Below, piece after piece: positions 4,901-58,321 of a stretch of 64,000 nt of DNA. Every line of letters starts with the position of its first letter. Position 1 is the first letter of the stretch. This DNA comes from Vibrio pelagius (GTDB taxonomy: Bacteria > Pseudomonadota > Gammaproteobacteria > Enterobacterales > Vibrionaceae). Location: contig NZ_AP025505.1 of NCBI RefSeq assembly GCF_024347575.1, positions 62,001 through 126,000 on the forward strand, given 5' to 3'. The translations under genes and the position numbers were made by a program. Under the pieces are notes generated by a model. The model was not told where the DNA came from and did not search any database. It saw only the letters and a program-made list of their open reading frames with translations.

Positions 4901-4914
4901 GGGTGGCAAGTTAG

Positions 4915-10236: not shown

Positions 10237-10350
10237 CTATCACGTACGGCTGTACTGTTCGGCGACAGGTTTCATTTTACTCGGGGTATGTATTGTGGCG
10301 GCTTCCAACAGGGCCAGGGCAAACAATAAATAACCGCGTGACATCTGTAG

Positions 10351-36135: not shown

Positions 36136-39100
36136 TCTGGCGCTCTCCTTTTGGATCCAAAAACACAGTACTACAAATTTCAGCTTCTATTACGCGACCA
36201 TCCGCTTGTGGGTAATAGATCTTTTCTCCCATGCGATCAAGTCCGCCTTTCACAAAGCCCATTGCGATACTCCTACTTAGGTTTTCGCTCCAGTAACTAG
36301 AAGTAACATGTCCAACCATAGGCACCGGAATCGGCGCATTTGGATCAAGTACACCTTGTGAGCCTTCAGGAATGACAACATTAGGGTCAATCGTTTTTAA
36401 GCCGACCAACTGTTTACGATTTGATTTGACACAATCTTCACGTGCCATACCGCGTTTGCCGATAAAGCTAAATGGTTTTTTGTTTGCCACACACCATCCC
36501 ATACCTAAATCATAAGGATGAACGCTTCCATCGGTATCTTGACCTGCAATGATAAAGCCTTTCTCTGCTCGTAATATATGCATCGTTTCGGTACCGTAAG
36601 GTGTGATGTCATATTTCGCGCCGTGTTCAATCAACTTTTTCCAAACGTATAGCCCATAGTTCGCCTGTACGTTAATTTCGAATGAAAGCTCGCCAGTAAA
36701 TGAGATACGGAAAATACGTGCTGGTACACCGGCTACTGTCGCTTGTTTCCAGTCCATGAACGCAAAATTTTCTTTGCTTAAGTCACAGTCCGTTAGCTCT
36801 TGAAGCAGATTACGACTGTTCGGCCCTGAGATTGTTGCGGTTGCCCAGTGGTCGGTCACGGAGGTAAAATACACTTCCAGTTCTGGCCATTCTGTTTGAT
36901 GGTATAGTTCTAACCACTCAAGTACGTGAGCCGCACCACCGGTCGTCGTCGTCATTAGGAAGTGGTTTTCACCAAGACAAGACGTGACGCCATCATCAAA
37001 CACCATACCATCTTCGCCACACATCAAACCGTAGCGACATTTCCCGACTGGTAATTTTGCCCACGCATTACTGTAGATCCGCCCTAAAAATTCTCGAGCA
37101 TCTTTACCCTGAATATCTATCTTTCCAAGCGTCGAAGCATCAAGAATACCGACCGAATTACGAACAGCCAGACACTCACGGTTTAGAGTCTCTTGCATCG
37201 TTTCTGAGCCTCTTGGGAAGTACCACGGACGCTTCCACTGGCCAACATCTTCAAATTTTGCACCATTTTCAAGATGCCACTGGTGCATAGCTGTATATCG
37301 TTTAGGGTCGAATAATTCTTTGCAATTGCGCCCTGCGATCGCACCAAAAGTAACAGGCGTGTAGTTAGGACGGAAAATTGTCGTTCCCGTTTCAGGAATT
37401 GACTTGTTAAGCGCTTTCGCTGCGATGGCCATTCCATTGATGTTACCTAGCTTACCTTGGTCAGTACCAAAGCCTAAAGCCGTATAACGTTTAACATGTT
37501 CTATAGACTCAAAACCTTCTCGACACGCAAGTTCAATACCCGCGGCCGTAACATCATTTTGAAAATCAACAAACTGTTTTGGTGCGCGTGAAGTTTTTTT
37601 AGGATGAGGGATGTGGAAAATGGCCATAGGTTTAGCAAACTGCACTTCATCCGTTTTTGGCAAATGCACATCGACAGCACTCAAACCTAATTCTTGAATC
37701 GCCTTGTTTCCAGCCTCAATACCTTCCTTTAGTGCGCCTTGAGTCGTGAACGTGCCATTAATGGCGCCTGTTACTAATTGTTTCTGCTTTGTGTCGCCCG
37801 GAACAAAGCCAATCACGCTTTCATCCCATACAGGGCGACTTCCCGTATGACAAGATAAGTGGACAGCCGGACTGAATCCTCCAGAAGTGGCAATCGTATC
37901 CACTTGCAGAGTTTCGCCCGATTTATCTACTGCATTACCGCTTGCATCAAGCTTGTGAATTCGGACTCCGGTGACACGCTTATTGCCCATAGCTTCAACG
38001 ACTGCTGAGCCTTTGATGATACGGATTCCTCTATCGGCAACTTGTTGAATCAAAGCACTATCTGCATTAGCACGAGTGTCAACAACTGCGCTGACTTTTC
38101 GACCTGAAGCGTGCCAATCGAGTGCCGTTTGATACCCACTGTCATTGGCTGTCATTACAACTAGGTTTTCACCTGGAACCACCGAGTAACGATTAATATA
38201 AGTGGATACTGCGCTGCAAAGCATACAGCCTGGCAGATCATTATTACCAAATACTAACGGACGCTCGTGAGCTCCCGTAGCAAGCACAACCCACTTAGCT
38301 CGCACTCGATGTAAACGTTGACGTGCAGTATTACTAGGCGCAATATCCATAAGATGATCCGTACAGCGTTCGTGTATGGTCAAGAAGTTGTGGTCGTGGT
38401 AGCCATTGACGGTTGAACGTGGCAATAACATTACGTTAGGGAAACTTTCAAGTTCTTTAACTACCTCAGCGACCCACTCTACCCCTTCACGACCATCAAC
38501 CTGAGCTTTGGAGCTAAGTATGTCGCCGCCCATCTCACTTTGCTCATCCGCAAGAATCACACGAGCCCCACCACGTGCCGCGGTTAGCGCAGCCATTAAA
38601 CCAGCGGGACCTGCACCTACTACAAGCACATCGCAGTGCTGATTAATATTTTCGTAGCGATCAGGATCGCTGTCCAATGGTGAACGCCCTAACCCAGCCG
38701 CGCGACGGATGAACTTTTCATAGGTTTCCCACATCGATTTTGGCTGCATGAAGGTCTTGTAATAGAAACCTGGAGGCATCACACCACTTCCGACCTTACC
38801 AACCAGCCCCATTACGTCTTTCTCTACGTTTGGCCAACCGTTTGTCGATTGACACACCAAACCGTCGTATAAATCTTGCTGTGTAGCTCGGATATTTGGT
38901 ACCTGAGTCGCCTCAGTTGCTCCGAGTTGGAATATCGCGTTAGGCTCCTCTGCACCTGCGGCAATAATGCCGCGAGGACGGCTATACTTAAAGCTACGAC
39001 CAATAACGTCTACTCCATTTGCCAGCAACGCAGAAGCCAAGGTGTCACCGGCATAACCCTTGTATGACTTGCCATTGAATTCAAAACTGATTGACTTTGA

Positions 39101-39145
39101 TTGATCAACTCGGCTTCGCGATGAAATTCGATTTATTTGTTTCAC
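36128..39145 (-). CDS. soxA: Sarcosine oxidase alpha subunit
   Basis: Large subunit of 1005 residues. It starts with a 2Fe-2S ferredoxin-like region (GKSYKGYAGDTLASALLANG), then a dinucleotide-binding domain (DVLVVGAGPAGLMAALTAARGG) that holds NAD+. The C-terminal ~400 residues are like the glycine cleavage T-protein and bind tetrahydrofolate. The complex oxidises sarcosine to glycine, passes the methyl-derived unit to folate as 5,10-methylene-tetrahydrofolate and makes hydrogen peroxide. The length is that of complete family members. soxD lies 11 bases upstream. Confidence 0.96.
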   Translation of the reverse strand: MKQINRISSRSRVDQSKSISFEFNGKSYKGYAGDTLASALLANGVDVIGRSFKYSRPRGIIAAGAEEPNAIFQLGATEATQVPNIRATQQDLYDGLVCQSTNGWPNVEKDVMGLVGKVGSGVMPPGFYYKTFMQPKSMWETYEKFIRRAAGLGRSPLDSDPDRYENINQHCDVLVVGAGPAGLMAALTAARGGARVILADEQSEMGGDILSSKAQVDGREGVEWVAEVVKELESFPNVMLLPRSTVNGYHDHNFLTIHERCTDHLMDIAPSNTARQRLHRVRAKWVVLATGAHERPLVFGNNDLPGCMLCSAVSTYINRYSVVPGENLVVMTANDSGYQTALDWHASGRKVSAVVDTRANADSALIQQVADRGIRIIKGSAVVEAMGNKRVTGVRIHKLDASGNAVDKSGETLQVDTIATSGGFSPAVHLSCHTGSRPVWDESVIGFVPGDTKQKQLVTGAINGTFTTQGALKEGIEAGNKAIQELGLSAVDVHLPKTDEVQFAKPMAIFHIPHPKKTSRAPKQFVDFQNDVTAAGIELACREGFESIEHVKRYTALGFGTDQGKLGNINGMAIAAKALNKSIPETGTTIFRPNYTPVTFGAIAGRNCKELFDPKRYTAMHQWHLENGAKFEDVGQWKRPWYFPRGSETMQETLNRECLAVRNSVGILDASTLGKIDIQGKDAREFLGRIYSNAWAKLPVGKCRYGLMCGEDGMVFDDGVTSCLGENHFLMTTTTGGAAHVLEWLELYHQTEWPELEVYFTSVTDHWATATISGPNSRNLLQELTDCDLSKENFAFMDWKQATVAGVPARIFRISFTGELSFEINVQANYGLYVWKKLIEHGAKYDITPYGTETMHILRAEKGFIIAGQDTDGSVHPYDLGMGWCVANKKPFSFIGKRGMAREDCVKSNRKQLVGLKTIDPNVVIPEGSQGVLDPNAPIPVPMVGHVTSSYWSENLSRSIAMGFVKGGLDRMGEKIYYPQADGRVIEAEICSTVFLDPKGERQNA

Positions 39146-39156
39146 CTTAGGACTCC

Positions 39157-39441
39157 TTAACCTGCAACCAATGAAGGTTGCTCTCCAATCTTGTACACTT
39201 CCTTGATTTCGTACGTTTGAGTATCACGTGTTATGTTAAAAAACTTACGACAGCCCGCTGAGTGCACCCAAAGCTCATGATGAAGACCACGAGGGTTTTT
39301 ACGAAAGAATAAGTATTCTCCCCACTCTTCATCAGTACAGTTATCCGGGTCTACCGGACGAGATATATGCGCCTGGCCTTTTGGTTGAAATTCTTCTTCT
39401 TCTCGAAACTCACGACAGTGAGGGCAATAAATCAAAAACAT
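39157..39441 (-). CDS. soxD: Sarcosine oxidase delta subunit
   Basis: Protein of 94 residues. Zinc ligands are visible in YCPHCREFREEEEF and in the later HSAGCRKFF. DEEWGEYLFFRKNPRGLHHELWVH is the conserved body, here in parts. It is the small zinc subunit of the heterotetramer, placed between soxB and soxA with 14 and 11 bases of spacing. Confidence 0.93.
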   Translation of the reverse strand: MFLIYCPHCREFREEEEFQPKGQAHISRPVDPDNCTDEEWGEYLFFRKNPRGLHHELWVHSAGCRKFFNITRDTQTYEIKEVYKIGEQPSLVAG

Positions 39442-39455
39442 AAATTTTCTCCCTG

Positions 39456-40709
39456 TTAATGCGCTACGCCCGCAGCACCGTGTTCATCAATCAAAGCTCC
39501 AGAATTAAAGCGGAACATAGAAAATGGTTTTGCTAAGTCATGCATTTCACCTTTAGCCAAACTTGCAGCGAAAACGTTGCCTGAACCAGGTGTTGCTTTG
39601 AAGCCACCAGTTCCCCAACCACAGTTAAAGAATAAGTTTTTCACTGGCGTTTTAGAGATGATTGGACATGCATCGGCAGTCGTATCCACTATGCCTCCCC
39701 ACTGCCTGTTCATTCTGACGCGAGAAAATATTGGGAACATTTCGATGATGGCTTGTACTGTGTGCTCGATAGTAGAGTAAGAGCCACGTTGCCCGTAGCC
39801 ATTGTAGCCATCAATACCCGCACCGATTACCAAGTCACCTTTATCTGACTGACTGATATAACCATGAACGTGATTCGACATAACTACCGTATCTAAGATC
39901 GGTTTGATCGGTTCCGATACTAGTGCCTGCAATGGGTGAGACTCTAATGGCAAATCGAATCCAGCCATCTTCGCCAATACACCAGAGTTACCCGCGACCA
40001 CGCAGCCTACTGTGTCAGCCATGATATTACCGTAACGATTAGTCTTAACACCTACGACTGCTCCATCTTCGATTATCATATCGACAACTTCTGTTTGCTG
40101 AATGAGGTCAACGCCCATGCTATCGGCACCACGAGCGTAACCCCAAGCAACCGCATCGTGACGAGCTACACCTGCATTTTCTTGCCATGACGCGCCAAGG
40201 ATCGGATATCGAGTGTTAGTAGAACAATCCAAATGGGGCACAAGCTCTTTTACTTGTTGTGTATCAAGTACTTCACCTTGAATACCGTTTAGACGGTTGG
40301 CTGCAACACGACGTTCAATATCACGCATATCCTGTAGGGTATGTCCAAGGTTCAGACAACCGCGACGAGAAAACATTACGTTGTAATTTAGGTCTTGTGA
40401 TAAGCCATCCCACAGCTTCAATGAATGTTCATACAAGAATGCTGCTTCGTCCCATAGGTAGTTAGAGCGTACGATTGTGGTGTTACGTGCTGTATTTCCC
40501 CCGCCTAAATAACCTTTTTCTATAACAGCGACGTTGGTAATACCGTGTTCTTTTGCTAGATAATATGCAGTAGCCAAACCATGACCACCGCCACCGATAA
40601 TAATTACATCATATTTCTTTTTTGGAGTAGGATTGCGCCAAACACTTTGCCAATTTTCATGATGTGAAAATGCGTGTTTAATTAGCCCAAAACCAGAATA
40701 ATGCTGCAT
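39456..40709 (-). CDS. soxB: Sarcosine oxidase beta subunit
   Basis: Catalytic flavoprotein subunit of 417 residues. The FAD-binding motif [23 protein letters not shown] is near residue 33. [15 protein letters not shown] and [15 protein letters not shown] are family signatures. This subunit binds FAD non-covalently and, from family knowledge, FMN covalently through a His, and it oxidises sarcosine. First gene of the soxBDAG-purU operon. Serine hydroxymethyltransferase, often part of such operons, is not present here. Confidence 0.95.
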
Positions 40710-41506: not shown

Positions 41507-42526
41507 TTATTGGGACAAATAACCGAAGCGAGATTGATTGAGTTCACGCATACGAGCGAATACGTCAACACCCAATTGATTGTAAACATCGAGAATATCA
41601 ACCAGTACCCAGTTTTCTCGAATTAACGGGCCTTCACAACGCCAGAAGTCCAAACTACGCATCGTGATCTCTTTGTCACTTGGCGCAATACCAAGCCAGC
41701 CATCACCAGAAAGCGTCATACTCATACCTGGCCATGCAGTGAAGGCTACGTAGTTATTTTCCGCAAATAATACGCCATTTCCCCAGATGGTGGTTCTGTC
41801 TGGCATCGCATTTAAAAATGGGATCTGATGGTGTTTTCTAAAACCTTGAATCCCACGCGCCGTGCCAATGGTGGATGGTCCATACCAGCTACAACGTGGG
41901 TGCCAGTAGGATTCAAGTCCCATTGCTTTGGCACCACCTTCAGCATGTTTGAGTAAGCCATGAAGCATATTGTTGACGACGTGAAAGGTTTCTTGTGTCA
42001 ATCCTTCATTTGGTTCACCTAGCATCACGCCATCATGAGTTGCTGGTGACGGGACATGCCACTCTCGGCCGAGGCTCGGAGAGAGTGGCCATGATTGAGA
42101 TTGAATCATAAGCTCAGGAATGTCCCATAGTGCTTGAATTTCCACTACCTGTCCGCCTTCAATGCGATAAAATTCATGAAATCGCATCGATACTTGTTTA
42201 CCGGTAGGGGGAATATCAAGCCAAGGCTGTTCAAATGTTCCGGTGTAATAGCCACCGGCACCAACCCACTCGTCGCCGTTGGCTTCATTAGCCATCAAAA
42301 TGTAAGTCCGCTTTTCAAGATCAGGAATCGCAGAAATAAGTGGAGCGAAAACTTGATGGTAGTATTCGTTTGGTCCCTGTAACGTTTCAAAAGGGAAACA
42401 CATCTGCACAATGGCATCAGGCGCTAAAGTTTCGTTTAACAAACGAATAAAATGTTCTGGCTCATGATCATAAAGTGCTTCGTTAAGGGTGTGAATTAAA
42501 GCCTTATTCGATGAATACGTTGTCAT
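41507..42526 (-). CDS. Tandem NTF2/SnoaL-like domain protein (paralogue 1)
   Basis: Protein of 339 residues that appears to be two SnoaL-like (NTF2 fold) domains in a row. The first half has FHEFYRIEGGQVVEIQALWDIPEL, a typical last-strand region of the fold; the second has SWYGPSTIGTARGIQGF, in which a short Trp-x-Gly-Pro motif is shared with two other local proteins, and it ends in ENWVLVDILD. No signal peptide. NTF2-fold enzymes include cyclases, isomerases, hydrolases and dehydratases, so the reaction is open. It follows paralogue 2 after 167 bp on the same strand. Confidence 0.75.
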   Translation of the reverse strand: MTTYSSNKALIHTLNEALYDHEPEHFIRLLNETLAPDAIVQMCFPFETLQGPNEYYHQVFAPLISAIPDLEKRTYILMANEANGDEWVGAGGYYTGTFEQPWLDIPPTGKQVSMRFHEFYRIEGGQVVEIQALWDIPELMIQSQSWPLSPSLGREWHVPSPATHDGVMLGEPNEGLTQETFHVVNNMLHGLLKHAEGGAKAMGLESYWHPRCSWYGPSTIGTARGIQGFRKHHQIPFLNAMPDRTTIWGNGVLFAENNYVAFTAWPGMSMTLSGDGWLGIAPSDKEITMRSLDFWRCEGPLIRENWVLVDILDVYNQLGVDVFARMRELNQSRFGYLSQ

Positions 42527-42693
42527 TCGTTACTCCGTTATAAACTCTTACAGTTACGTGACATTAATAACCAATTATTATACCGGGGTTTTTGGCGCCC
42601 ATTTCATAAACTATCGTTATTAATGCTGGATGTGATTTGCAATATATTGAATCAATTGGAACTTATCTTAATTGGATTCGTAGTCAGTCTCTT

Positions 42694-43710
42694 TTAAATT
42701 TCTTCCACTAATTCATTCGTCGATTTGGGAAGTTTATCGAGTAAATTAACTCCACACTGTTGGCCAAACTCAATGAGGTCAATAAGCACCCAGTTTTCAT
42801 GAAGTTTGTCATCTCTTCGAACGTAGAAGTCCATGATGTTCATACCTATTGCACCACCAGTAGGTTGAAAGCCTCTAAACGGTTTGCCTGTGAAGTGACC
42901 TTTCAAACTTGGCCAACCAGTAAAGGCTGCCGTTAAACCATCAGCGATACGAGCTCTGTGATAACCGCCGGTACGACCTGGGAAGCTTGCGACCGATGGC
43001 CCTTGAGCATACTTTTGAAACTCTTCAAATCCGTAACAAGACCCGACTCCCCACGGTCCATGCCATACCATGTCTTCATGCCAAAAATCAGCCATTCCCA
43101 TGCTGGCAAGTTGGCTACCCTTTAGTCGATTACAGCCGCCTAGCATATCTTCGACAAGCTCAAGCGTTTTCCTTGATTCATCAGGATCTTGGTCTTCATA
43201 ACACAAACCATTATCTAAAGCAGGCCCGGGTGCCACCTCACTTCTGCCTTCAAAGGGTGGTAACAACGGGAAACCGGCTTGTGCGGATAGTCCGAGAATG
43301 TCAAACAGGCAGAGTATTTCTACAATCTGCTGATCAACGACCTTATAAAACTCGCCAAAGCGAAACCGTACGGGTTGTTTAGCCGGTGGGATACCAACAT
43401 AAGGCGCTTGCATTGTTCCAACAAACTCCCCTGCTGAAACCACCCAAGTCCCACCTTCAAACTCACCACCTAAAAACAGATAATCTTTGCGCTGTATTTG
43501 TGGAAATGTTCTCGCTAATGGCTGATAAACGCTTTGAAAAACTGCTTCAACTCCGGAGAGTTGTCCAATCGGCTGTGGGCCGTAAAAGTCAACGTCGTTA
43601 GAGAAGGCTGCTTTGTTTGGCAGAAGATATTGTGATTCCGGATGAGCGAGATGTTTCCAAAGCTGCTTGATGAGCTTTTTGGCACTTTTTATTGATGGTG
43701 AAGTAGACAT
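42694..43710 (-). CDS. Tandem NTF2/SnoaL-like domain protein (paralogue 2)
   Basis: Protein of 338 residues with the same two-domain layout. FGEFYKVVDQQIVEILCLFDILGL ends the first domain. VWHGPWGVGSCYGFEEF and ENWVLIDLIEF in the second match the positions of those motifs in paralogues 1 and 4. It has no signal peptide and so is cytoplasmic. It is divergent from the ABC importer operon over about 390 bp, so both units can share control. Function unknown; it probably acts on the imported compound. Confidence 0.75.
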   Translation of the reverse strand: MSTSPSIKSAKKLIKQLWKHLAHPESQYLLPNKAAFSNDVDFYGPQPIGQLSGVEAVFQSVYQPLARTFPQIQRKDYLFLGGEFEGGTWVVSAGEFVGTMQAPYVGIPPAKQPVRFRFGEFYKVVDQQIVEILCLFDILGLSAQAGFPLLPPFEGRSEVAPGPALDNGLCYEDQDPDESRKTLELVEDMLGGCNRLKGSQLASMGMADFWHEDMVWHGPWGVGSCYGFEEFQKYAQGPSVASFPGRTGGYHRARIADGLTAAFTGWPSLKGHFTGKPFRGFQPTGGAIGMNIMDFYVRRDDKLHENWVLIDLIEFGQQCGVNLLDKLPKSTNELVEEI

Positions 43711-44096
43711 AGATTTCTCCGAATGGATGTTCGTCTATTGAGTAGAAAAGTTTAATGAAGAATTGATGGATACCTATCCACCGATAAGCTAAGTAATCTT
43801 TACTCACTGAACTGCAATTTGTAAACAACTTGTTTCACTGATTACTGTTATTATTTATCGGCCATTTCTTTAACTAAGTATCAATAAAATTAACAAAAAT
43901 AGCTTTAAACCCCAGAATATAACCATGTAATAGACTTAATCTCTAAAAATTTGCTTTTTTCAAGACTGTAATTCAATGGCTATTTTTTGCTCAAAGTCTC
44001 ATTATTCACAACGTACCTATTTTTAAATTTGCATTCGTATTCATAATGTGAAAAGTTTTAATAAACTTGTTGCAAATATGTTACTTCGGAGGAAGT
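43711..44096. other. Divergent promoter region of the NTF2/ABC locus
   Basis: About 385 bp of AT-rich DNA between paralogue 2 and the ABC ATPase gene. It must hold promoters in both directions. No clear operator or riboswitch was recognised, and no regulator gene lies within the locus. Confidence 0.5.
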
Positions 44097-45224
44097 GTGG
44101 CTAGAATACAACTGAAATCCCTTACTAAGAAGTGGGGAAAAGTCTACGGTGTAAACGACGTCAATCTAGACATTAAAGACCAAGAGTTCGTGGTTTTTCT
44201 TGGGCCGTCAGGATGCGGTAAGACAACAACGATGCGCATGATTGCGGGCTTGGAAGACCCTTCAAGTGGGGAAATTCACATTGGAGATCGCGTGGTTAAT
44301 GAACTTGATCCCAAGGACAGAGACGTCGCAATGGTATTCCAAAGCTATGGTCTGTACCCCAACCTCACCATCTACGAAAATATTCGTTTTCCACTTAAAG
44401 TTCGAAAAGTTGATGCTGCGACTCACGATGAAAGAGTTAAGCGTGCAGCAGAAATGGTGGAGTTAGGGGATCTTCTTGATCGTTATCCTAGAGAACTATC
44501 GGGTGGGCAACGACAACGTGTAGCCCTCGCACGAGCTGTTGTACGTGAACCTACCGTATTCCTGATGGACGAACCTTTATCCAACCTAGATGCCAAGCTT
44601 AGAGTATCAACACGCGCTCAATTGAAGCATCTTCAGCATGAGCTAAAAGTCACCACCATTTACGTTACCCACGATCAGATCGAAGCAATGACACTTGCTG
44701 ACCGAGTAGTTGTAATGAATGGTGGAGAGATTCAACAAGTAGGTACTCCAACCGAAATTTATAACAACCCCGCCAACGTATTCGTGGCAAGTTTTATAGG
44801 CTCACCTGCTATGAACTTGGTCGAGGGCACCATTAAAGACGGTGTCTTTGAAGCAGAGAATATCCGTATCAGTGGCTTAAGCACAGAGGTGACGGGTGAC
44901 GTTATCTTGGGTTATCGAGCAGAGGATGCGCAAGTTACAGAACATCAAGCACTCAATTCTGTACCGCTTTACAACAGCTACAGCGAACTTGGGTCAGCGG
45001 CTCGAAAACGCCAAGAGTTTGAGCCTCAGATTGCGGTCAGCGCACCGGTTTATAGTATGGAACTGTTGGGTGATGCCACAATGGTGACGGTTAAAACGGG
45101 AAGTGCACTGTTTGCGGCGAAAGCCGATAAGCATTTCAGAATTGATATCGACCAGCCGATTAGTTTTGAGCTCGATGTCTCGCATTGTCATCTATTCGAC
45201 AAACAAACCGGTCAAAGAATCTAG
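44097..45224 (+). CDS. ABC importer ATPase (MalK/UgpC type)
   Basis: Cytoplasmic ATPase of 375 residues. Walker A is GPSGCGKTTT, the signature LSGGQRQRVALARA, and Walker B VFLMDEPLSNLDAKLR with the switch His in VTHDQIEAMTLADRV. A C-terminal regulatory OB-like domain (TOBE) follows from about residue 240, as in sugar importers of the CUT1 class. GTG is taken as the start because GGAGGA lies 4 bases before it; an upstream in-frame TTG has no such site. It energises the permease pair encoded downstream. Confidence 0.93.
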   Translation: MARIQLKSLTKKWGKVYGVNDVNLDIKDQEFVVFLGPSGCGKTTTMRMIAGLEDPSSGEIHIGDRVVNELDPKDRDVAMVFQSYGLYPNLTIYENIRFPLKVRKVDAATHDERVKRAAEMVELGDLLDRYPRELSGGQRQRVALARAVVREPTVFLMDEPLSNLDAKLRVSTRAQLKHLQHELKVTTIYVTHDQIEAMTLADRVVVMNGGEIQQVGTPTEIYNNPANVFVASFIGSPAMNLVEGTIKDGVFEAENIRISGLSTEVTGDVILGYRAEDAQVTEHQALNSVPLYNSYSELGSAARKRQEFEPQIAVSAPVYSMELLGDATMVTVKTGSALFAAKADKHFRIDIDQPISFELDVSHCHLFDKQTGQRI

Positions 45225-45233
45225 TTCTAATCC

Positions 45234-45294
45234 AGATAAGTATCAGCTTGATGATGGACGCCTTCAACTGGATATATTGAGCTTTTACTTATCT
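45234..45294 (+). other. Inverted repeat between ATPase and binding-protein genes
   Basis: AGATAAGTA (45234-45242) and its exact complement TACTTATCT (45286-45294) enclose 43 bases in the gap before the binding-protein gene. Further pairing of AATC with GATT extends it. It may be an mRNA structure affecting expression, or chance. Confidence 0.35.
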
Positions 45295-45332
45295 AGATTG
45301 GCGGGACGAACAGAAAAATAAAGGATTTTATA

Positions 45333-46547
45333 ATGTTTAAAAGAGTTTTAGCCGCGGTTGCCATTAGTTCATCTTTGCTAGCGACTTCCGCGTACGCTGA
45401 CTGTGGTTTTACTAACGAGACAGAAGTTAAGTCACTCTCTGCGAGCTTTCAAGCGTGGAAAGTGATCACGAATGAGATGCAAAAATGCGGCAATGTATCT
45501 GCTGAATTAGATAATGAATTTAAGATTAAACAACCTGCAGCATTCGCAACTCAACCTTCACTTTATCATATTGCAGGGGTATCAAACGAAACGATTCAAC
45601 CCCTACTCAATGAAAAAACGATTCGTCCATTAGACGATTTGGTAGCCAAATACGGACAGCATTTATCACCAAATCAATTAATTAAAGTCGATGGAAAAAT
45701 CATGGCGATTGCGATGATGATTAATAGTCAGCACCTCATCTATCGCCAAGACATTTTGGATCAGCTGAAAATTCCGACTCCGACCACTTACGATGAAGTT
45801 CTATCAGCAGCGAAAAAGATTCGTGACGCTGGGATTATGGAATACCCTTTAACAGGCACCTATAAAACAGGTTGGAACTTAGGGATGGAGTTTACCAATT
45901 TATACATGAGTTATGGTGGTCAGTTTTTTGATGAATCAAACCAACCAATGGTGAATAGTGAAGCTGGTAAGCAAACCCTGACTACTATGAAAGCGTTGAC
46001 AGAATATATGGATCCGGAATATCTCATTGCCGACTCCACGCAGGTTCAAAAGAAGTTACAACAAGACAAAGCTGCCATAGCCAACCTCTGGGCATCACGC
46101 GCAAGTGCCGTCGATGATGAAGCCGAATCTTTAGTCGCGGGTAAAATTGCATTTGCCGCCGCACCATCTGCTGTCCCTGGAGGTAAACCCGCTGCTACCT
46201 TATGGTGGGATGGCATGACTATCGCCGCCAACATTAGTGATGAAGAAGCTGAAGCCGCATTTCGCACTGCCATATCGACGCTAACACCTGAGATGGCGAA
46301 CACCAATAGCACAGTGGCGACATGGCTTGTTAAAGGTTACAAACCAAGTAAGTATTCAACGGGTTCAATTGCTAATGCCCAAAGTGGCACACCTGCTTAT
46401 CCTGCGTCAGTACCTATGGGAATGATGCAAGCAGCCTTAGGTACAACAGTATCTAACTACCTAGTTGGTGACACATCCCTTGAACAAACCTTGCAAGAAA
46501 TTGAATCTAAATACCTGACGACCGCTAAGGAATCAGGACTACTGTAA
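45333..46547 (+). CDS. ABC importer substrate-binding protein (family 1, CUT1)
   Basis: Periplasmic binding protein of 404 residues. The signal peptide MFKRVLAAVAISSSLLATSAYA ends in AYA before ADCGF. The mature part has the usual family 1 organisation, with LYRQD-like LIYRQDILDQLKIPTPTTYDEVLSAAKKI in the middle and a Trp-rich WWDGMTIAANISDEEAEAAF segment. It delivers the substrate to the two permeases that follow. CUT1 systems carry oligosaccharides, polyols or glycerophosphates; the substrate here is unknown. Confidence 0.9.
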   Translation: MFKRVLAAVAISSSLLATSAYADCGFTNETEVKSLSASFQAWKVITNEMQKCGNVSAELDNEFKIKQPAAFATQPSLYHIAGVSNETIQPLLNEKTIRPLDDLVAKYGQHLSPNQLIKVDGKIMAIAMMINSQHLIYRQDILDQLKIPTPTTYDEVLSAAKKIRDAGIMEYPLTGTYKTGWNLGMEFTNLYMSYGGQFFDESNQPMVNSEAGKQTLTTMKALTEYMDPEYLIADSTQVQKKLQQDKAAIANLWASRASAVDDEAESLVAGKIAFAAAPSAVPGGKPAATLWWDGMTIAANISDEEAEAAFRTAISTLTPEMANTNSTVATWLVKGYKPSKYSTGSIANAQSGTPAYPASVPMGMMQAALGTTVSNYLVGDTSLEQTLQEIESKYLTTAKESGLL

Positions 46548-46555
46548 GACTCAAA

Positions 46556-46584
46556 CGCTACCTCGTCGTTTTTTAGAGGTAGCG
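46556..46584 (+). terminator. Intercistronic hairpin after the binding-protein gene
   Basis: Perfect 9-bp stem CGCTACCTC / GAGGTAGCG with an 11-base loop containing TTTTTT. It has no T-run behind it. Such hairpins after binding-protein genes protect the upstream mRNA or cause partial termination and so give more binding protein than permease. Confidence 0.6.
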
Positions 46585-46695
46585 ATTCCATCCCCTGTTC
46601 GGTTCTAGAATGAACTTCCGTTTGCGCTTAACTAGCCGCACCGGAGCTAGTATACGCAGGTGATGTCAGGACGACGTACATTTCAGGAGAAAGTA

Positions 46696-47721
46696 ATGCG
46701 ACGCAGTACCTTTCTGGCATTTATTGCCCCTTCAATTTTTATGATGGTGTTTTTTATTGCCGCACCACTGGTGAGTGTTTTTTGGCAAAGTCTACATGTG
46801 ACCAAGCCTGTTTTTGAAGAAGTGAAAATTGAAAAGTGCTCCCCAGGCTTTATGGAGCAAATCTGTACCACCGAAATCACAAGCCGACCAACATTTGATA
46901 GTGAAGGTAAACCAATTCAAGTTACCGAATTTGTTGGTCTCGATAGCTATCGAGAGATGCTACAGCCAGAACGTGTTGTGGCTGCATTAACCGGAGAAGG
47001 TGAAAGCATATCAAGTATATTTTCCATCGACTTCTACAAAGCACTACGCTTTACCCTAACTTTTACCCTCATCACCCTGCCGTTGGTACTTGGTTTAGGA
47101 TTGGCATTGGCGATTGCGGTTCACAACACCGTTAAATCTTTACGTGGCCCAATTATCTTTATCTCGTTACTGCCGTTTATCATAACGCCTGTAATTGGTG
47201 CGCTATCAATCCGTTGGTTGTTTGTCAGCGATGGTATTTTGAGTGCAGGGATTAATCATTTGCTGGGTTATGAGTTTGCGATGTTTGCACAATCGTGGAC
47301 CATTGAAATACTCATGATGTTTTATCGTGTATGGCATGTGGCTCCTTTTGCTTTCATCATTTTCTATGCCGGGTTGCAATCAGTCAATCAAGACACATTA
47401 GATGCTGCGATTGTTGACGGTGCTTCACGCTGGGAACGCACACGCTCGGTCATTATTCCCCACTTAATGCCGCTCATTATTTTCGTTTCGATGGTGCATT
47501 TAATGGATGCATACCGAGTGTTTGAAGAAGTGATCGGGTTTAGCAGTGAAGCTCATGTGATTTCATTGCAGTGGCTGACGTTTGACCTACTCACACCGGA
47601 CAACACGGGTAACCGTTCGATCTCGCGTGCTTCAGCTTCTTCCATGCTGACTCTAGTGGGCATTGTATTGCTGCTGATTCCAGTACTACAACGTACTTGG
47701 CGCGATCACAAACGTAGTTAG
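46696..47721 (+). CDS. ABC importer permease (MalF/UgpA type)
   Basis: Inner-membrane permease of 341 residues with about six transmembrane segments. The EAA loop that contacts the ATPase is DAAIVDGASRWERTRSVIIPHLMP. Between the first and second helices is a periplasmic loop of about 100 residues with two Cys (KCSPGFMEQICTT), which could form a disulfide; it is longer than in most UgpA-like proteins. AGGAGA precedes the ATG at a normal distance; an in-frame ATG 36 bases upstream lacks one. Confidence 0.9.
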   Translation: MRRSTFLAFIAPSIFMMVFFIAAPLVSVFWQSLHVTKPVFEEVKIEKCSPGFMEQICTTEITSRPTFDSEGKPIQVTEFVGLDSYREMLQPERVVAALTGEGESISSIFSIDFYKALRFTLTFTLITLPLVLGLGLALAIAVHNTVKSLRGPIIFISLLPFIITPVIGALSIRWLFVSDGILSAGINHLLGYEFAMFAQSWTIEILMMFYRVWHVAPFAFIIFYAGLQSVNQDTLDAAIVDGASRWERTRSVIIPHLMPLIIFVSMVHLMDAYRVFEEVIGFSSEAHVISLQWLTFDLLTPDNTGNRSISRASASSMLTLVGIVLLLIPVLQRTWRDHKRS

Positions 47722-47745
47722 TCTAGAAATTAAAGGATTTAATTC

Positions 47746-48978
47746 ATGATTATTTCAGAAGTACCACGAGCGTTTCGTCAGCCTCTTAGCTTGAAATTGA
47801 CCACGAATACACTTTTAGCAGCCTGGGTTTTAATTGCTTCCTTCCCATTGGTGTGGATAGCGGTAATGTCGTTCAAACTACCAATGGATTCATTTGCCAA
47901 TAATCCATTACAAGTATTGATGGGTTTCGAAACCTTGCAGAGTGTCGGTGGAATATCGACATTTCAAGTGATGCTTTGGGCAAGCTTTGCCTACCTTGTG
48001 TTCAAAGCGCCAGCCAAGTATGGTACCAAGTTAGTGGACTATTTATCGACCAGAAGTGACACACCACGTCCACAGTGGATAAGCTATTCACTTGCTTCAG
48101 CTGTGTACGTTCTAGCGATTGTAATCGGAGCATTTGTTGTGATTCCTGCTATGAACTTTATGGCGACATTTACGCTCGGATCGATCCCTTTCATTGGTGG
48201 TCTAGTAGAACCGATCATTGGTTTTACTTGGCAACACTATCAAGCAGTATGGCTAGAGAATGGCTTTTACAATCAATTTACGAACTCAATGATTGTTACA
48301 GCGGGTGTCGTTTGTATATCGCTATCGATAGGTACACTAGCAGGCTATGCGTTGTCCCGTACCAATTCAAACTTGGCTTTCTGGCTTTTGATAATCGCCT
48401 TGATCTTACGCGCGCTGCCTCACTCAGTACTCGTTGCGGGCTACTTACCAGCATTTATCAATTCAAGCGAGATCTTAGCACCGCTATGGGAGAGTGCTTG
48501 GACAGGATGGTTCTTCGGACTGTTTAGTGACGCTGCGCCAACACTTTATGGTAAACCAATGGCGATTATCATTGTGCTTGTCGCCATCAACCAACCATTC
48601 ACAATTTGGATGTTACGCTCATTTTTCCAAAATATCCCGCAAGATCTCGACGAGGCAGCAATGGTCGATGGTTGCACTCGCTTTGAAGCCTTCCGACGTG
48701 CTGTACTTCCAGTCGCCTGGCCTGGAATCATCACTGCAGGGCTATTCTCGTTCCTATTGGGGTACAACGATTTCCTTGTAACCTCGCTACTATTGGACGC
48801 CCAGTCACAAACTATGGTGCCAGCAATTAGCCAATATTTTAATCGAGAAACCACAATGACAGACCAAGTAGAGGCGGTTGCCGCTGCAGTGTCAATTACA
48901 GCACCTCTCTTCTTGTTGGTTATCGTGTTCCAAAAACAGATTGTATCGGGCCTAACTCAAGGCGCAGTTAAAGGTTAA
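47746..48978 (+). CDS. ABC importer permease (MalG/UgpE type), with extra N-terminal membrane insert
   Basis: Permease of 410 residues. The EAA loop is DEAAMVDGCTRFEAFRRAVLP and the C-terminal half follows the MalG pattern. MalG-like proteins are usually about 280-300 residues; the extra ~110 residues lie after the first helix (about residues 50-160) and contain two further hydrophobic segments, FQVMLWASFAYLVF and SLASAVYVLAIVIGAFVVIP. The insert is in frame, with no sign of a frameshift. It pairs with the preceding permease. Confidence 0.88.
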   Translation: MIISEVPRAFRQPLSLKLTTNTLLAAWVLIASFPLVWIAVMSFKLPMDSFANNPLQVLMGFETLQSVGGISTFQVMLWASFAYLVFKAPAKYGTKLVDYLSTRSDTPRPQWISYSLASAVYVLAIVIGAFVVIPAMNFMATFTLGSIPFIGGLVEPIIGFTWQHYQAVWLENGFYNQFTNSMIVTAGVVCISLSIGTLAGYALSRTNSNLAFWLLIIALILRALPHSVLVAGYLPAFINSSEILAPLWESAWTGWFFGLFSDAAPTLYGKPMAIIIVLVAINQPFTIWMLRSFFQNIPQDLDEAAMVDGCTRFEAFRRAVLPVAWPGIITAGLFSFLLGYNDFLVTSLLLDAQSQTMVPAISQYFNRETTMTDQVEAVAAAVSITAPLFLLVIVFQKQIVSGLTQGAVKG

Positions 48979-49002
48979 TAATAACGGTGGAAGAATATTG
49001 AA

Positions 49003-49971
49003 ATGAAAGGCTTTAATCCTAAATGGAAAGATTTTCCAGATTACATTATTGGTGTAACGAAAGAGATTTGGGAAGATCGTGGTGTGCATACACTAAAACA
49101 CTATTATGCACCCGATATTATCGTTCGTTCACCAGCTTCAGTAGTACAAGGCAATGAGGGCGTCATTGCTGCGACAATGTCGACTTTAGCTGAATTACCC
49201 GATCGCCAACTCTTTGGAGAAGATGTCATTTGGACAGGTACTCCCGAGCAAGGCTTGCTTTCATCACACCGTTTGTTGTGTACCGCAACACATAGCCATG
49301 CGGGAGCTTATGGTGCACCTACGGGAAAATTAATTAAGTACAGAATTTTAGCGGATTGTCACGCTATTAACGATCAGATTAATGATGAATGGTTGGTGAG
49401 AGACCAAGGTGCTATAGCGCTTCAACTTGGGAAAACGCCAATGGAGTACGCAAGCGAACTCATTGAATTGGAGGGTGGACTGGAGCGCTGTGTTCAGCCC
49501 TTTACACCTGAGATAGATGTTCAAGGACCATACCAAGGTGCCGGCAATAAAAGTGAATGGGGTGAGGCGTATCGAGATACGTTGACACGCATCATGCACG
49601 CCGAGTTTTCGGTGATTCCAACGGTTTACGACCGAGCTTGTATCGGTGAATACGCTAGCAATCGAACCGCACTATCGCATGGCGAAATAGACCATTTCTG
49701 GTTGAGCTTGCGCTCGAGCCTACCCGACGCTGAGTTCAAGATTGAGCACGTGATGGGCAATGACGATCCGATGATGTCGCCAAGAGCCGCTATTCGTTGG
49801 TCGTTGCAAGGTACTCACAGCGGTTACGGTTTACTTGGTAAACCAACTCAGCAGCCAGTGTATATAATGGGGATCTCTCATGCCGAGTTTGGACCTTGGG
49901 GTATTCGCCGCGAGTACACCTTAATTGATGAGGTAGCGATTTCCAAACAGATTTTACTTGGGCTGGGTTAA
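49003..49971 (+). CDS. NTF2/SnoaL-like protein (paralogue 3, divergent)
   Basis: Protein of 322 residues, 24 bases behind the second permease and so part of the importer operon. It has the two-domain size of the other local paralogues but is more divergent: the Trp-x-Gly-Pro motif of the second domain is not seen. DEWLVRDQGAIALQLG closes the first domain and WGIRREYTLIDEVAI the second. HYYAPDIIVRSPASVVQGNEGV is a usual NTF2-like opening. Cytoplasmic, function unknown. Confidence 0.72.
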   Translation: MKGFNPKWKDFPDYIIGVTKEIWEDRGVHTLKHYYAPDIIVRSPASVVQGNEGVIAATMSTLAELPDRQLFGEDVIWTGTPEQGLLSSHRLLCTATHSHAGAYGAPTGKLIKYRILADCHAINDQINDEWLVRDQGAIALQLGKTPMEYASELIELEGGLERCVQPFTPEIDVQGPYQGAGNKSEWGEAYRDTLTRIMHAEFSVIPTVYDRACIGEYASNRTALSHGEIDHFWLSLRSSLPDAEFKIEHVMGNDDPMMSPRAAIRWSLQGTHSGYGLLGKPTQQPVYIMGISHAEFGPWGIRREYTLIDEVAISKQILLGLG

Positions 49972-50128
49972 AACGGCTCAATGTGAAAACAGCTTCAACT
50001 GGGAGAGGTAATACTCTCCCTGTCGCTGATGATTCGCACAAACGCTCACTTCCACAGAACTTTTACTCCCACAATCCATTAACTTCCACAAACTTAATAC
50101 TTTCATAAACTTGAGACGAGAAAGGGAT

Positions 50129-51145
50129 ATGTCTAAATTTCAAAATGCAAAACGTATTGTTCGAGCCTACTTTGACGCTATTGAACAAGCAAGTCATGAA
50201 AACGTGGTCAATGTACTTAAGGAACATACCTCTGAAGATTATGTTTTTCGCGGCGTCTACCCATTCCGAGAGCAAGAGGGTGCGCAGGCAGCGGCAGAGG
50301 TATTTTGGTCGCCACTAATGAAATCAATAACGCGCATGCAGCGTCGCCAAGATATTTTCATTGCTGGCGAAAATGAAGTTGAGAGCGATGAAGTGTGGGT
50401 TATGAGTATGGGCCATTTTATGGGACTCTTTGACGCCGAGTATTTAGGGATTCGCCCAACCGGGAAAATCATGAATATCCGCTATGCAGAATTTAGCTGC
50501 GTAGAAAATGACAAGATAACAAAAACAGGTCTGTTCATTGATTTATTGGGTGTAATGGATCAAGCCGGCTGTTACCCACTACCTCCATCTACAGGACGAC
50601 ACTTTGTTTATCCGGGGCCAAGAAATCATGATGGTTTACTGTTTGAAGATGCTAAACCGGAAGAAGGCGTTCAGACACTAGCGCTTGTGAACCAGATGGT
50701 GGATGACCTTTCAACACTGAATGAAAGTGGTTCTATGGGCTGCCCACCTGAGGTTTTAGAGAAAACATGGTCTAAAGATATGCTCTGGTATGGACCTTGC
50801 GGAATTGGTGCAACTTATACAATTCCGCGTTATCAACAACAGCATCAACTGCCATTTCGACAAAACCTTAAAGATAAGACATTTAATGGGCACGTTTGTC
50901 GATTTGCCGAGGGAAAATTCGCCTGTTTCTTTGGTTGGCCTAACCTATCCAACACACCGATAGGTGGTTTTTTGGGTATGACGGGCGGCGAAACGCGAGC
51001 TCATATGCAAGTCGTGGATGTGTATTATCGAGAAGACGATAAGCTGTCAGAGAACTGGGTTCTGATCGATCTCCCATACTGGTTAAAGCAGCAAGGGTTA
51101 GATGTACTCGAACGAACGGCTAGTATTATGAACCCTAGTTACTAA
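50129..51145 (+). CDS. Tandem NTF2/SnoaL-like domain protein (paralogue 4)
   Basis: Protein of 338 residues and last gene of the importer operon, 157 bp after paralogue 3. The second domain has LWYGPCGIGATYTIPRY and ends in ENWVLIDLPYW, matching paralogues 1 and 2 more closely than its neighbour. The ATG is preceded by GAAAGGG; an in-frame TTG 18 bases upstream is rejected. No signal peptide. It probably acts with the other paralogues on the imported compound, but this is inferred from position only. Confidence 0.75.
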   Translation: MSKFQNAKRIVRAYFDAIEQASHENVVNVLKEHTSEDYVFRGVYPFREQEGAQAAAEVFWSPLMKSITRMQRRQDIFIAGENEVESDEVWVMSMGHFMGLFDAEYLGIRPTGKIMNIRYAEFSCVENDKITKTGLFIDLLGVMDQAGCYPLPPSTGRHFVYPGPRNHDGLLFEDAKPEEGVQTLALVNQMVDDLSTLNESGSMGCPPEVLEKTWSKDMLWYGPCGIGATYTIPRYQQQHQLPFRQNLKDKTFNGHVCRFAEGKFACFFGWPNLSNTPIGGFLGMTGGETRAHMQVVDVYYREDDKLSENWVLIDLPYWLKQQGLDVLERTASIMNPSY

Positions 51146-52225: not shown

Positions 52226-52990
52226 CTAGAGCGCCACGCACATTGGGGTATTTGAAATCGGATCGCGGAAAACTTTCGCATTCAAATCAAAAACATCGTC
52301 AAGCAACGCCTCCGTTATCACATGATCAGGAGCCCCTTCAACCACAACACGGCCCTGCTTTAAGACCACTAAATGATCGCAGTAACGACACGCTTGATTC
52401 AGGTCGTGGAGCACGACAACCACCGTTTTACCTTTGTCATTCATTTTTTGCATTAAACTCATTAGCTCGACTTGATGAGACATATCTAAATATGTAGTAG
52501 GCTCATCAAGCATTACGATGTCCGTATCTTGTGCAATCACCATTGCGATCCATGCTCTCTGCCTTTGACCTCCGGACAAAGATTCAACCGGCTGGTCAGC
52601 ATACTCACGTACACCTGTATCACGCATTGCTTGTTCGACAATGATTTGATCGTCTTTACCTAACTTTCCCCAATGTGAAACATAAGGTGAACGGCCATAC
52701 TCCACCAATTTTCTAACGGTAATACCTTCTGGACTAACTAGAATTTGTGGCAAAAGTGACAAAGAACGCGCGAGCACTTTATCGCCATAACTTGATAGCG
52801 GTTTACCTTCAAACAGCACCTGCCCTGACATTGGTTTATTAATTCTTACCAAAGTTTTTAACAAGGTTGACTTACCACATCCATTGGGGCCTATTAGCGC
52901 GGTAATCTTCCCTTTAGGGATTGAAACCGTGAGGTTTGGGATGATCGTTTTTTTGCCGTATGCAACCGAAAGATTTTGCGTTTTTAGCAT
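52226..52990 (-). CDS. Iron(III)-chelate ABC transporter ATPase (FecE-like)
   Basis: ATPase of 254 residues. Walker A is GPNGCGKSTLLKTL, the signature ESLSGGQRQRAWIAM, and Walker B DIVMLDEPTTYLDMSHQ, all standard for FecE/FepC siderophore importers. The ATG two bases behind the permease stop is chosen; a TTG nine bases earlier is less likely. Last gene of the receptor-proximal operon. Confidence 0.93.
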   Translation of the reverse strand: MLKTQNLSVAYGKKTIIPNLTVSIPKGKITALIGPNGCGKSTLLKTLVRINKPMSGQVLFEGKPLSSYGDKVLARSLSLLPQILVSPEGITVRKLVEYGRSPYVSHWGKLGKDDQIIVEQAMRDTGVREYADQPVESLSGGQRQRAWIAMVIAQDTDIVMLDEPTTYLDMSHQVELMSLMQKMNDKGKTVVVVLHDLNQACRYCDHLVVLKQGRVVVEGAPDHVITEALLDDVFDLNAKVFRDPISNTPMCVAL

Positions 52991-52992
52991 GG

Positions 52993-53964
52993 TTACCAAC
53001 CTCGATAACGATGAAGAAGAAAAATGAAATAAGGTGCACCAATCACTGACGTAAGCACGCCAGCTGGCAACTCTGTTGGAGGGTTCAAGCCCCTAGCTAA
53101 CGCATCTGCAACAGTCACTAAAGTGGCCCCAAGTAAAGCCGATGCCGGAATTAACAATTTATGATTATGCCCAAACAATAAGCGGGCTAAGTGCGGAGCC
53201 AATAATCCAACGAAACTGATCGTTCCTGCCACTGAAACGCTGACGCTCGCAAGTAAGACAGCCGCCAACAATGCAAGAATCTGAATCTGTTTCGGCTTAA
53301 TGCCCAATGTAGTCGCACTTTCCTCACCCAACCCTAACACGTCCAAACGCCAAGCAAGCCAAAGTGCCAATGGCAGTAGTAAAACCAACGCTCCCCAAAT
53401 AAATGGAACTTGCTGCCAATTCCTCCCCCAAAGACTCCCTGTTAACCACACCATAGCGGTGTTGATCTCAATTGGGTTCGTGACGAGTAAGAAGTCAATA
53501 CAACTTGCTAGAAACGCGCTCACCGCAATACCGATCAGTGCCAGTTTGGCCGGTGTTGGTTTAGACCACCACGCCAAGAAAGCAATCAATCCAGCTGCAA
53601 CCACACCGCCGAACATCGCAAATATCGGAAGTAAACTCACTGATGCATTAGGTGACCACACCAAACTCGCGGTAGCAGCCAGGCCAGCTCCAGCGCTAAT
53701 TCCCATCAGATCAGGAGACGCTAGGGGATTGCGTATTACCCCTTGTACTAACACGCCTGAAAGACCTAACCCTGCCCCCACGCTGACCGCGAGTAACATA
53801 CGTGGTAACCGATACTGCTGTATAACAAAATCATCACTAGAAAAAGCGATTAGGTTCTGTATCACTTGAATACTAGAGACTGATGCTGCCCCAACAAACA
53901 AACCAGAAAAGGCTATCAATATGAGTAACCCAAGCAACAACCATACTTTCGCGTTATGATGCAT
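52993..53964 (-). CDS. Iron(III)-chelate ABC transporter permease (FecD-like)
   Basis: Inner-membrane permease of 323 residues from the BtuC/FecCD family with about nine to ten helices. RNPLASPDLMGISAGAGLAA is the standard early motif, and FVGLLAPHLARLLFGHNHK with ALARGLNPPTELPAGVLTSVIGAPYFIFLL are at the end. The ATG overlaps the stop of the preceding permease gene (TAATG), so the longer form with 11 more residues is not used. It forms the channel together with the other permease. Confidence 0.92.
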   Translation of the reverse strand: MHHNAKVWLLLGLLILIAFSGLFVGAASVSSIQVIQNLIAFSSDDFVIQQYRLPRMLLAVSVGAGLGLSGVLVQGVIRNPLASPDLMGISAGAGLAATASLVWSPNASVSLLPIFAMFGGVVAAGLIAFLAWWSKPTPAKLALIGIAVSAFLASCIDFLLVTNPIEINTAMVWLTGSLWGRNWQQVPFIWGALVLLLPLALWLAWRLDVLGLGEESATTLGIKPKQIQILALLAAVLLASVSVSVAGTISFVGLLAPHLARLLFGHNHKLLIPASALLGATLVTVADALARGLNPPTELPAGVLTSVIGAPYFIFLLHRYRGW

Positions 53965-54998
53965 TAAGACTTCCTCGTCGCAATGAGAATAAAACAAGGC
54001 GTCCCTATCAAAGCGGTAATGACACCCACGGGCGTTTCAGTCGGAAAAGCAATCGCTCTTGATAAGGCATCTGACCAAGATACCAACGCAGCCCCCGCCA
54101 TGGCGGAAACAGGTATCAACACATAGTAGTTGTACCCAAGCATAGGTCTGACTAGATGAGGAACTAGCAACCCGACAAAACCAATCGGTCCAGCAATAGC
54201 AACACTTGCACCAGCCAACAAAACGATGGTCACACTACAAATAAATCTAGTAAGACGGATATTGCTGCCCAGCCCAACCGCTACTTCTTCACCAAGCGCA
54301 AGTAGATTGAGATTACGCGCCAGACTCATCGCTAGCCCTAACCCGATCATTGCAGGCGGCCACAGCACTTGCCATTGATCATCGTCCACGGTAGATAAAG
54401 AGCCAGTAAGCCAATGCAACACGCTATAAGCCATGTCATCAGCAAGAATCAGTGCGGCTCGAGTCAACCCGATTAACAATGCTGTAATGGCAATCCCCGC
54501 CAAAACCAAACGCAATGGATGGGAACGAGCAGAAAAAAAACCGCCGAGAATCATCACAGCACCACCACTTAACGAAGCTCCGATAACGGCATTGAGAATT
54601 GGATTCAGCTCACTGATAATAGGCACACCTATCGCCGCTAAAGCCATAAAACAGGCCGCACCAGAATTAATCCCAAGAATAGAAGGAGATGCGAGAGGGT
54701 TTCGTGTTAACCCCTGCATCAGTAGGCCTGAGACGGCTAAACTCGCTCCAATTAATAACCCAGCGTAAGCTCTTGGTGCTCTTAGAGTCGCGAAGATTTG
54801 ATGAGTCATGTTGCTCGTATCAAACGAAAACCAGTAACCTATTAAATCAGTCAAAGTTAGGGAAAAGCTAGACCACCCGAGCATTGAGGCCGCATAGCCA
54901 GATAGCATCAAACACAACACTAACAAGGTAAATACAGCGGCTCGCCACGGCAACATTAGCAGATTTCGCCCACTTCTAGAGATCAACATTGCTCTCAT
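53964..54998 (-). CDS. Iron(III)-chelate ABC transporter permease (FecC-like)
   Basis: Permease of 344 residues of the FecCD family. [24 protein letters not shown] and [19 protein letters not shown] are conserved, as is the ending [18 protein letters not shown]. Its start overlaps the end of the binding-protein gene by 4 bases (ATGA), and its stop overlaps the next permease by 1, so the operon is tightly coupled. Confidence 0.92.
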
Positions 54999-55933: not shown

Positions 55934-56020
55934 ATTAAATTATCCTCTAACGCTAAAACTGTGAAAGCCGCCAAGAGTATTGGCGACTTTTATTTGTATT
56001 GAATTTCAATAAATTATCGA

Positions 56021-58177: not shown

Positions 58178-58321
58178 GGAGATCTCCTAAGTACATAGGT
58201 TAGGGCCAAAGCTATATATTTCTTGAGCTTCTGCTCTGACCCTTGGGCTAAAATGACCTAAACTAAGGTCAACTATTCGCTAATTCGCGAAAATCAAAAT
58301 AGCTATATAACGAGCTGGCTT

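Follow-up and report, generated by a model that had tools for sequence, protein, structure and literature searches.

Which pathway is served by a bacterial locus in which a complete CUT1-type ATP-binding cassette (ABC) importer is accompanied by four SnoaL-like proteins? Such a locus lies at positions 41507–51145 of a 64,000-nucleotide stretch of Vibrio pelagius DNA (hereafter, the window), on contig C3 (395,604 bases). Its four tandem SnoaL proteins are called S1 to S4. The module is conserved and real, but the evidence does not support a pathway of NTF2-fold enzymes only. We think it rather probable that a split, LacI-controlled regulon serves a carbohydrate- or acid-sugar-like nutrient, that the locus contributes its uptake and SnoaL half, and that the SnoaL proteins catalyze some of the steps. 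The computed gene content was as follows.

41507–42526, minus strand: S1, tandem SnoaL protein, 339 residues (PF07366, E 1.5e-23; AlphaFold2 mean predicted local distance difference test score, pLDDT, 94.8)
42694–43710, minus strand: S2, tandem SnoaL protein, 338 residues (PF07366, E 8.5e-20)
44029–44044, plus strand: operator-like site TTGCATTCGTATTCAT, 5' of the importer genes (the sole match of TTGCATWCGTATKCAW without mismatch in its own genome)
44067–45224, plus strand: CUT1-type ATPase, UgpC/MalK-like (PRK11650 UgpC, 435.9 bits, cut-off 432)
45333–46547, plus strand: extracellular solute-binding protein, 404 residues (SBP_bac_1, E 2.8e-20)
46660–47721, plus strand: importer permease 1 (BPD_transp_1, 30.5 bits, cut-off 26.4)
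47746–48978, plus strand: importer permease 2 (BPD_transp_1, E 2.2e-16)
49003–49971, plus strand: S3, tandem SnoaL protein, 322 residues (PF07366, E 4.2e-17; AlphaFold2 mean pLDDT 96.4)
50129–51145, plus strand: S4, tandem SnoaL protein, 338 residues (PF07366, E 3e-12)

By Pfam and NCBIfam cut-offs the importer is complete: a UgpC-type ATPase, an SBP_bac_1 protein, and two permeases. For the ATPase, the GTG at 44097 is a possible start, following the V. pelagius record. S4 can also be read as a frame of 344 residues from a TTG start (50111–51145, plus strand), while the ATG at 50129 yields 338 residues. An earlier note, made from the sequence alone, had described four proteins of 322–339 residues, two on the minus strand and two ending the importer operon, and the open frames (339, 338, 322, and 338 residues) agree with it. 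Its statement that no kinase, hydrolase, dehydrogenase, or regulator lies in the locus is true for 41507–51145, with sarcosine oxidase genes starting 800 bases off.

All four S proteins passed the curated cut-off of PF07366 (28.4 bits) with 46.9 to 83.4 bits; two SnoaL stretches were delimited by Pfam in each of S1, S2, and S3, and one in S4. Structure models were made for S1 and S3. Structure prediction had been set beforehand as a possible refutation of the NTF2 fold; both models consist of two alpha/beta NTF2-type units per chain, and the double NTF2/SnoaL layout proposed in the note is thus backed by confident tandem folds for S1 and S3 and by Pfam SnoaL matches in all four proteins. The W(Y/H)GPxx(I/V)G motif and the ENWVL(I/V)D ending, said to be common to three of the proteins, are present in S1, S2, and S4 and absent from S3. 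ENWVL(I/V)D is a family-wide last-strand motif that aligns with DHWGVADALGILVQIGM of the solved ester cyclase 8ysb, and the pattern W-x-x-x-D-x5-Q-x-G is aligned between the S proteins and this enzyme. We take the aspartate closing the last-strand motif to be SnoaL's catalytic acid/base; it does not vary in either half of S1–S4 (D135 and D310 in S1 numbering) and aligns with solved ester cyclases. In a 63-row alignment D135 and D310 are invariant, as are R115, D293, and N305.

The four proteins are not equally close. Pairwise identity among S1, S2, and S4 is 30–34%, and S3 is a far relative of these three (BLAST E 0.008 or worse to each). S1 groups with L031:15467-16516, with genes of loci L055 and L038, and with two Marinomonas genes (support 97/94), in a clade that adjoins a HisD-type dehydrogenase in relatives. 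S2 forms its own clade (support 100/100) and has 183 relatives at E ≤ 1e-3, including an 'ester cyclase' of Vibrio paucivorans (73%).

The importer–SnoaL linkage was set as a refutation test and was examined in relatives of the binding protein. A total of 91 relatives were found in genome contigs, and 80 loci were kept, from Roseobacteraceae, Roseibium, Marinomonas, Thiotrichaceae, and single-cell alphaproteobacteria; because many of the single-cell contigs are near-identical, the 80 loci are not independent. Genes anywhere in a locus were labeled by six-frame phmmer at E ≤ 1e-12, with the label of the nearest representative. At least one SnoaL gene was found in 80/80 binding-protein loci. The number of SnoaL genes was one in 16 loci, two in 7, three in 20, four in 32, five in 4, and six in 1, so that 64/80 loci have at least two; the count for the draft locus L008 is inflated by split genes. 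Further genes recur alongside. With loci cut by a contig end included, LacI and S3-type genes were each detected in 60 of the 80, HisD in 52, SDR in 51, cupin (bicupin) in 48, and MetE-like genes in 39; among the 55 loci with full flanks, the counts were 45 for the S3 type, 44 for LacI, 39 for SDR, 37 for HisD, 35 for cupin, and 28 for MetE-like genes. Less common in the 80 loci were alpha/beta hydrolase (12), HAD (10), and RraA (5), and HpcH was labeled in none. As a control, 12 loci of distant CUT1 binding proteins were taken, comprising every other match of the binding protein from a search of 61 genomes, of which 11 had no SnoaL match at E 1e-3, one control locus being cut to 10.6 kb (L146) and one having no module gene of any kind (L149). 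Control locus L140 holds S3, S1, and single-domain SnoaL genes with LacI, HpcH, HisD, and SDR. A contig assigned to a 'Euryarchaeota archaeon' (L071) carries the alphaproteobacterial form of the module and is perhaps mis-binned.

S3 served as an independent anchor. Of 369 gammaproteobacterial genomes, 14 had a match at E ≤ 1e-3, its own included, and seven genomes other than its own had one at E ≤ 1e-50. Genes for HisD, LacI, SDR, and an ABC or SSS transporter were present in five of these seven loci (L133, L134, L137, L138, L139); L135 (5.8 kb) holds SnoaL, LacI, and cupin genes, and L136 SnoaL genes only. L138 and L139, each from a different gammaproteobacterium, pair the module with an SSS transporter, and a TonB-type receptor and an amidohydrolase were seen there by eye as well. 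S2 was uninformative as an anchor, with E ≤ 1e-60 in 1/398 genomes, its own.

The number of SnoaL genes, ranging from one to six per locus, together with loci reduced to an importer and one SnoaL gene, would suit proteins that carry, sense, or sequester the compound, with the chemistry left to HisD, SDR, cupin, and aldolase. NTF2 folds can also act as binding pockets. We consider such a binding or accessory role unlikely: it is opposed by the invariance of Asp135 and Asp310 across the 63 rows, with R115, D293, and N305, and by the nearest solved structures with named functions, which are polyketide cyclases and epoxide hydrolases.

A candidate for the other half of the regulon was found on C1 of the same genome. 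The HisD of a relative matches C1:1506777 (66%), C1:1752718 (65%), and one further gene (34%), and the cupin of that relative matches C1:1508877 (56%) and C3:245227 (41%). The C1 stretch that holds C1:1506777 and C1:1508877 (L112) comprises an SSS symporter, LacI, an HpcH/HpaI aldolase, an HpsN-type HisD, SDR, a bicupin, an alpha/beta hydrolase, and two tandem SnoaL genes, whose products match S1 at 38% and S3 at 67%. In Vibrio maritimus a single locus (L008) contains both the SSS/SnoaL pair and the importer/SnoaL set and thereby connects the two halves. Within L008 (2997–3991 and 8722–13644) frame splits, due to sequencing errors or decay, interrupt four genes: the ATPase, the two permeases, and a SnoaL gene. 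Two more C1 stretches hold related genes. In L114 (G000:C1:1063000-1080000; 4389–10376) a SnoaL gene 84.6% identical to S4 has a LacI-like gene and an MFS transporter as neighbors; inspection by eye added an EamA-type gene and a porin. In L113 (G000:C1:1745000-1762000; 197–10162) a second HpsN/HisD-type gene (436 residues), with a TACGTA palindrome 5' of it, is accompanied by a LacI-like gene and genes for a TRAP transporter; tartrate-dehydrogenase-like and Asp/Glu-racemase-like genes were also noted there by eye.

An operator-like sequence may point to control by LacI. In relatives, the region that separates the divergent SnoaL and ATPase genes repeatedly contains a palindrome resembling TTGCATACGTATGCAA. 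The scan listed 49 regions, of which 11 were empty (inverted bounds) and 38 were left, including the window and L008, one of them only 26 bases long. A TTGCA..CG..TGCAA-like site was counted manually in 21 of the 38, many from close Ruegeria kin. In the V. pelagius genome, TTGCATWCGTATKCAW has one perfect match, at 44029–44044, and two with one mismatch, one of which, at C1:1506675-1506690, lies 77 bases upstream of the C1 HisD start. The operator-like sequence stands at both the importer and the C1 HisD promoters, and a LacI protein would bind at this putative operator. In L112, nine matches with up to three mismatches were found; shuffles gave a mean of 1.7, and 0/200 reached nine. A palindrome search of 18 intergenic stretches of the genome returned two matches, none of them in the window. 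Further operator-like sites on C3, at 207368 (one mismatch) and 287203 (two mismatches), have no module member nearby by eye.

Several observations weigh against a LacI-controlled split regulon. The nine matches in L112 amount to five places, as both strands were counted at four of these; the whole window has 4 matches with up to three mismatches versus 4.6 expected, which is no excess; and with up to two mismatches the pattern does not outnumber its reversed control (7/7 versus 6/8). The ambiguity letters W, K, and W were chosen from the variants of relatives after the window copy was known, each variant occurring in relatives. The window copy is imperfect, and no such palindrome was detected at the scan threshold in the window or L008. 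The window locus has no LacI gene. HisD was not detected in 28/80 loci, nor in 18/55 with full flanks, and four loci (L051, L053, L056, L058) hold the binding protein, permeases, and one SnoaL gene only. The MetE-like gene, frequent in relatives, has no orthologue in the V. pelagius genome (best match 31%). The labels SDR, LacI, and ATPase were given at superfamily level and may take in unrelated members. Finally, the link between the importer and the Otn (3-oxo-tetronate) genes described below rests on one plasmid.

Among solved structures, the nearest chains to the binding protein are sugar- and polyol-type binding proteins, all distant (best E 5e-16). The bicupin on C1 has one solved match, quercetin 2,3-dioxygenase, which is weak (E 0.005), and the C1 hydrolase is PcaD-like, resembling 3-oxoadipate enol-lactonases far under their cut-offs (88.7 bits versus 390). 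The closest relatives of HpcH are keto-deoxy-sugar-acid and hydroxy-oxo-acid aldolases, although it scores under the curated cut-offs for named families. Proteins of the MetE-like group carry HxC, Glu, and Cys residues resembling what we take to be the zinc site of methionine synthase. The sole match in the V. pelagius genome to the module MetE-like protein is a MetE-like frame (31%) at window 28948–29982, 11.5 kb from S1.

The best clue to the substrate class, as far as gene content can point to one, is a link to acid sugars. On C3 (L115, G000:C3:238000-252000; 1365–9826), OtnK, OtnC, and OtnI score over their cut-offs and are accompanied by a second bicupin–HpcH–hydrolase trio and a TRAP transporter; transposase-like genes, seen by eye, come after the Otn operon. 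On plasmid pC of Ensifer adhaerens (L165), this importer (50–66%), S3 (56%), HpcH, hydrolase, OtnK, OtnC, LacI, and cupin occur together. OtnK scores 456 bits there (cut-off 350), OtnC falls just under its cut-off (240.8 versus 250), and OtnI was not found in the locus.

Two other substrates were weighed. The nearest solved relative of the module HisD-type enzyme is sulfopropanediol dehydrogenase (E 2e-115, 9.5e-119), and SmoF, a sulfoquinovosyl-glycerol binding protein, is a far relative of the window binding protein (E 6.6e-9). Both would fit an organosulfonate or a sulfo-sugar, with the HisD-type enzyme acting as a sulfopropanediol dehydrogenase. Sugar, maltose-type, and sorbitol binding proteins nevertheless score above SmoF, and the Otn genes point to acid sugars; we regard a sulfonate as improbable. 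Alternatively, the bicupin might open a cyclic compound (a cyclitol, or a mycosporine-like or aromatic substrate), with cleavage by the aldolase and the PcaD-like hydrolase, as the quercetin dioxygenase and enol-lactonase likenesses would allow. This is slightly more improbable still, since the CUT1 importer, the LacI regulators, and the Otn link favor open-chain carbohydrate acids; a literature search on mycosporines gave nothing relevant among the matches listed.

Least probable is the proposal of the earlier note that a series of NTF2-fold enzymes alone converts the compound: the NTF2 fold and the importer linkage stand, and the window locus holds no further enzyme, but HisD, SDR, LacI, bicupin, and MetE-like genes occur in relatives, and dehydrogenases, a cupin, a hydrolase, HpcH, and LacI on C1, with the operator-like sequence before both the importer and the C1 HisD.

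We return to the split regulon. We infer that the SnoaL proteins are enzymes, and the following reactions, substrate class, and order of steps are a proposal. The regulon would be divided over two replicons under LacI control. The CUT1 importer would take up a hydroxyl-rich, carbohydrate- or acid-sugar-like compound. The tandem SnoaL proteins, with S1 and S3 as the probable core and S2 and S4 as accessory members, would use the conserved Asp of each half as a general acid/base and isomerize, dehydrate, or hydrate an oxidized intermediate. The remaining steps would fall to the HpsN/HisD-type and SDR dehydrogenases, bicupin, alpha/beta hydrolase, and HpcH aldolase encoded on C1, and the products would be a pyruvate-type fragment and, probably, a tetronate able to enter the Otn route. 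We put the chances at about even that this is an undescribed catabolic pathway in which tandem SnoaL proteins catalyze the committed steps from an imported carbohydrate-like metabolite to tetronate- and pyruvate-level products. It would occur in Roseobacters, Roseibium, Marinomonas, a few vibrios, and uncultured marine alphaproteobacteria, and more distantly in Deinococcus, Priestia, Pantoea, and rhizobia. Handles on it are offered by the binding protein, through a ligand that would identify the substrate, by the predicted operator, and by the jointly testable halves of the regulon.

Among 61 genomes, the V. pelagius one included, a binding-protein match at E ≤ 1e-3 was found in 12, and strong matches were found only in this genome and in G011 of the same genus (32% identity), so that its presence across the genus is sporadic. 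The eight locus genes are 98–100% identical to those of plasmid p_1 of V. pelagius WXL662. S3 matched 50 plasmid records, 11 of which, picked by hand, were examined, and in the ten that remain when this near-identical record is left out, HisD lies within 12 kb in 7/10 (L156–L162) and LacI in 9/10 (all but L164); L163 and L164 lack HisD and cupin. Among the examined records are plasmids of Deinococcus, Priestia, and Pantoea, whose SnoaL proteins are only about 30% identical and whose substrates may differ. Amidase genes occur in the Priestia, Pantoea, and Roseibium plasmid loci. Many marine genomes carry the module, and more distant versions of it extend over three phyla (Pseudomonadota, Deinococcota, and Bacillota).

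In the database records examined, the SnoaL proteins bear only the names 'ester cyclase', 'SnoaL-like polyketide cyclase', or 'nuclear transport factor 2 family protein'. The note had known of no described pathway of this make-up, and likewise no description of the importer–SnoaL module appeared among the matches listed in literature searches. The terms searched for are absent from PMC10130141, and PMC9870897 gave one matching passage, a table of R. pomeroyi transporters.

Outside the locus, sarcosine oxidase alpha and beta genes (window 36128–40709) adjoin S1 across an 800-base gap. On the WXL662 plasmid the sox genes adjoin as well, there with gamma, delta, and purU. Sarcosine oxidase was set aside as a pathway member: no soxB label was found among the open reading frames called in the 80 relatives, where calling missed genes in GC-rich loci. 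On the other side, window 52226–60358 encodes an iron-chelate ABC importer and two TonB-dependent siderophore receptors, as named in the V. pelagius record.

How does the module compare with known systems? The window importer has the four-part make-up of CUT1 importers, with an ATPase of the UgpC/MalK group, while its binding protein is far from the named CUT1 binding proteins (NCBIfam best 25 bits versus a cut-off of 299). By overall similarity the HpsN sulfopropanediol dehydrogenase is the nearest solved relative of the module HisD-type enzyme, and its gene context differs. The Otn pathway (3-oxo-tetronate kinase, decarboxylase, and isomerase) has its genes beside a cupin–HpcH–hydrolase trio resembling that of the C1 module, whereas none of its genes lies in the window locus or the C1 stretch; to our knowledge, SnoaL proteins are no part of it. 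Lsd19, a tandem epoxide hydrolase, was the top Foldseek match of both the S1 and S3 models, with MonBI/MonBII next for S1. These proteins have two NTF2 domains, like S1 and S3, and unlike the S proteins they belong to polyether biosynthesis. Because whole-chain superposition on Lsd19 and MonB is poor (root-mean-square deviation 16–18 Å, query template modeling (TM) score about 0.3, identity 9–15%), the domain arrangement or the aligned halves may differ. Single S domains match AclR, IdmH, ChaU, and SnoaL2, with a target TM score of up to 0.88 to AclR (2gey_B). These SnoaL-like polyketide cyclases share PF07366 and the single-domain fold with the S proteins, but they are single-domain proteins of polyketide biosynthesis, whereas S1–S4 have two domains per chain in an importer and catabolic gene context. 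If the proposed pathway is real, a fold known from antibiotic biosynthesis would have been recruited to carbon catabolism.

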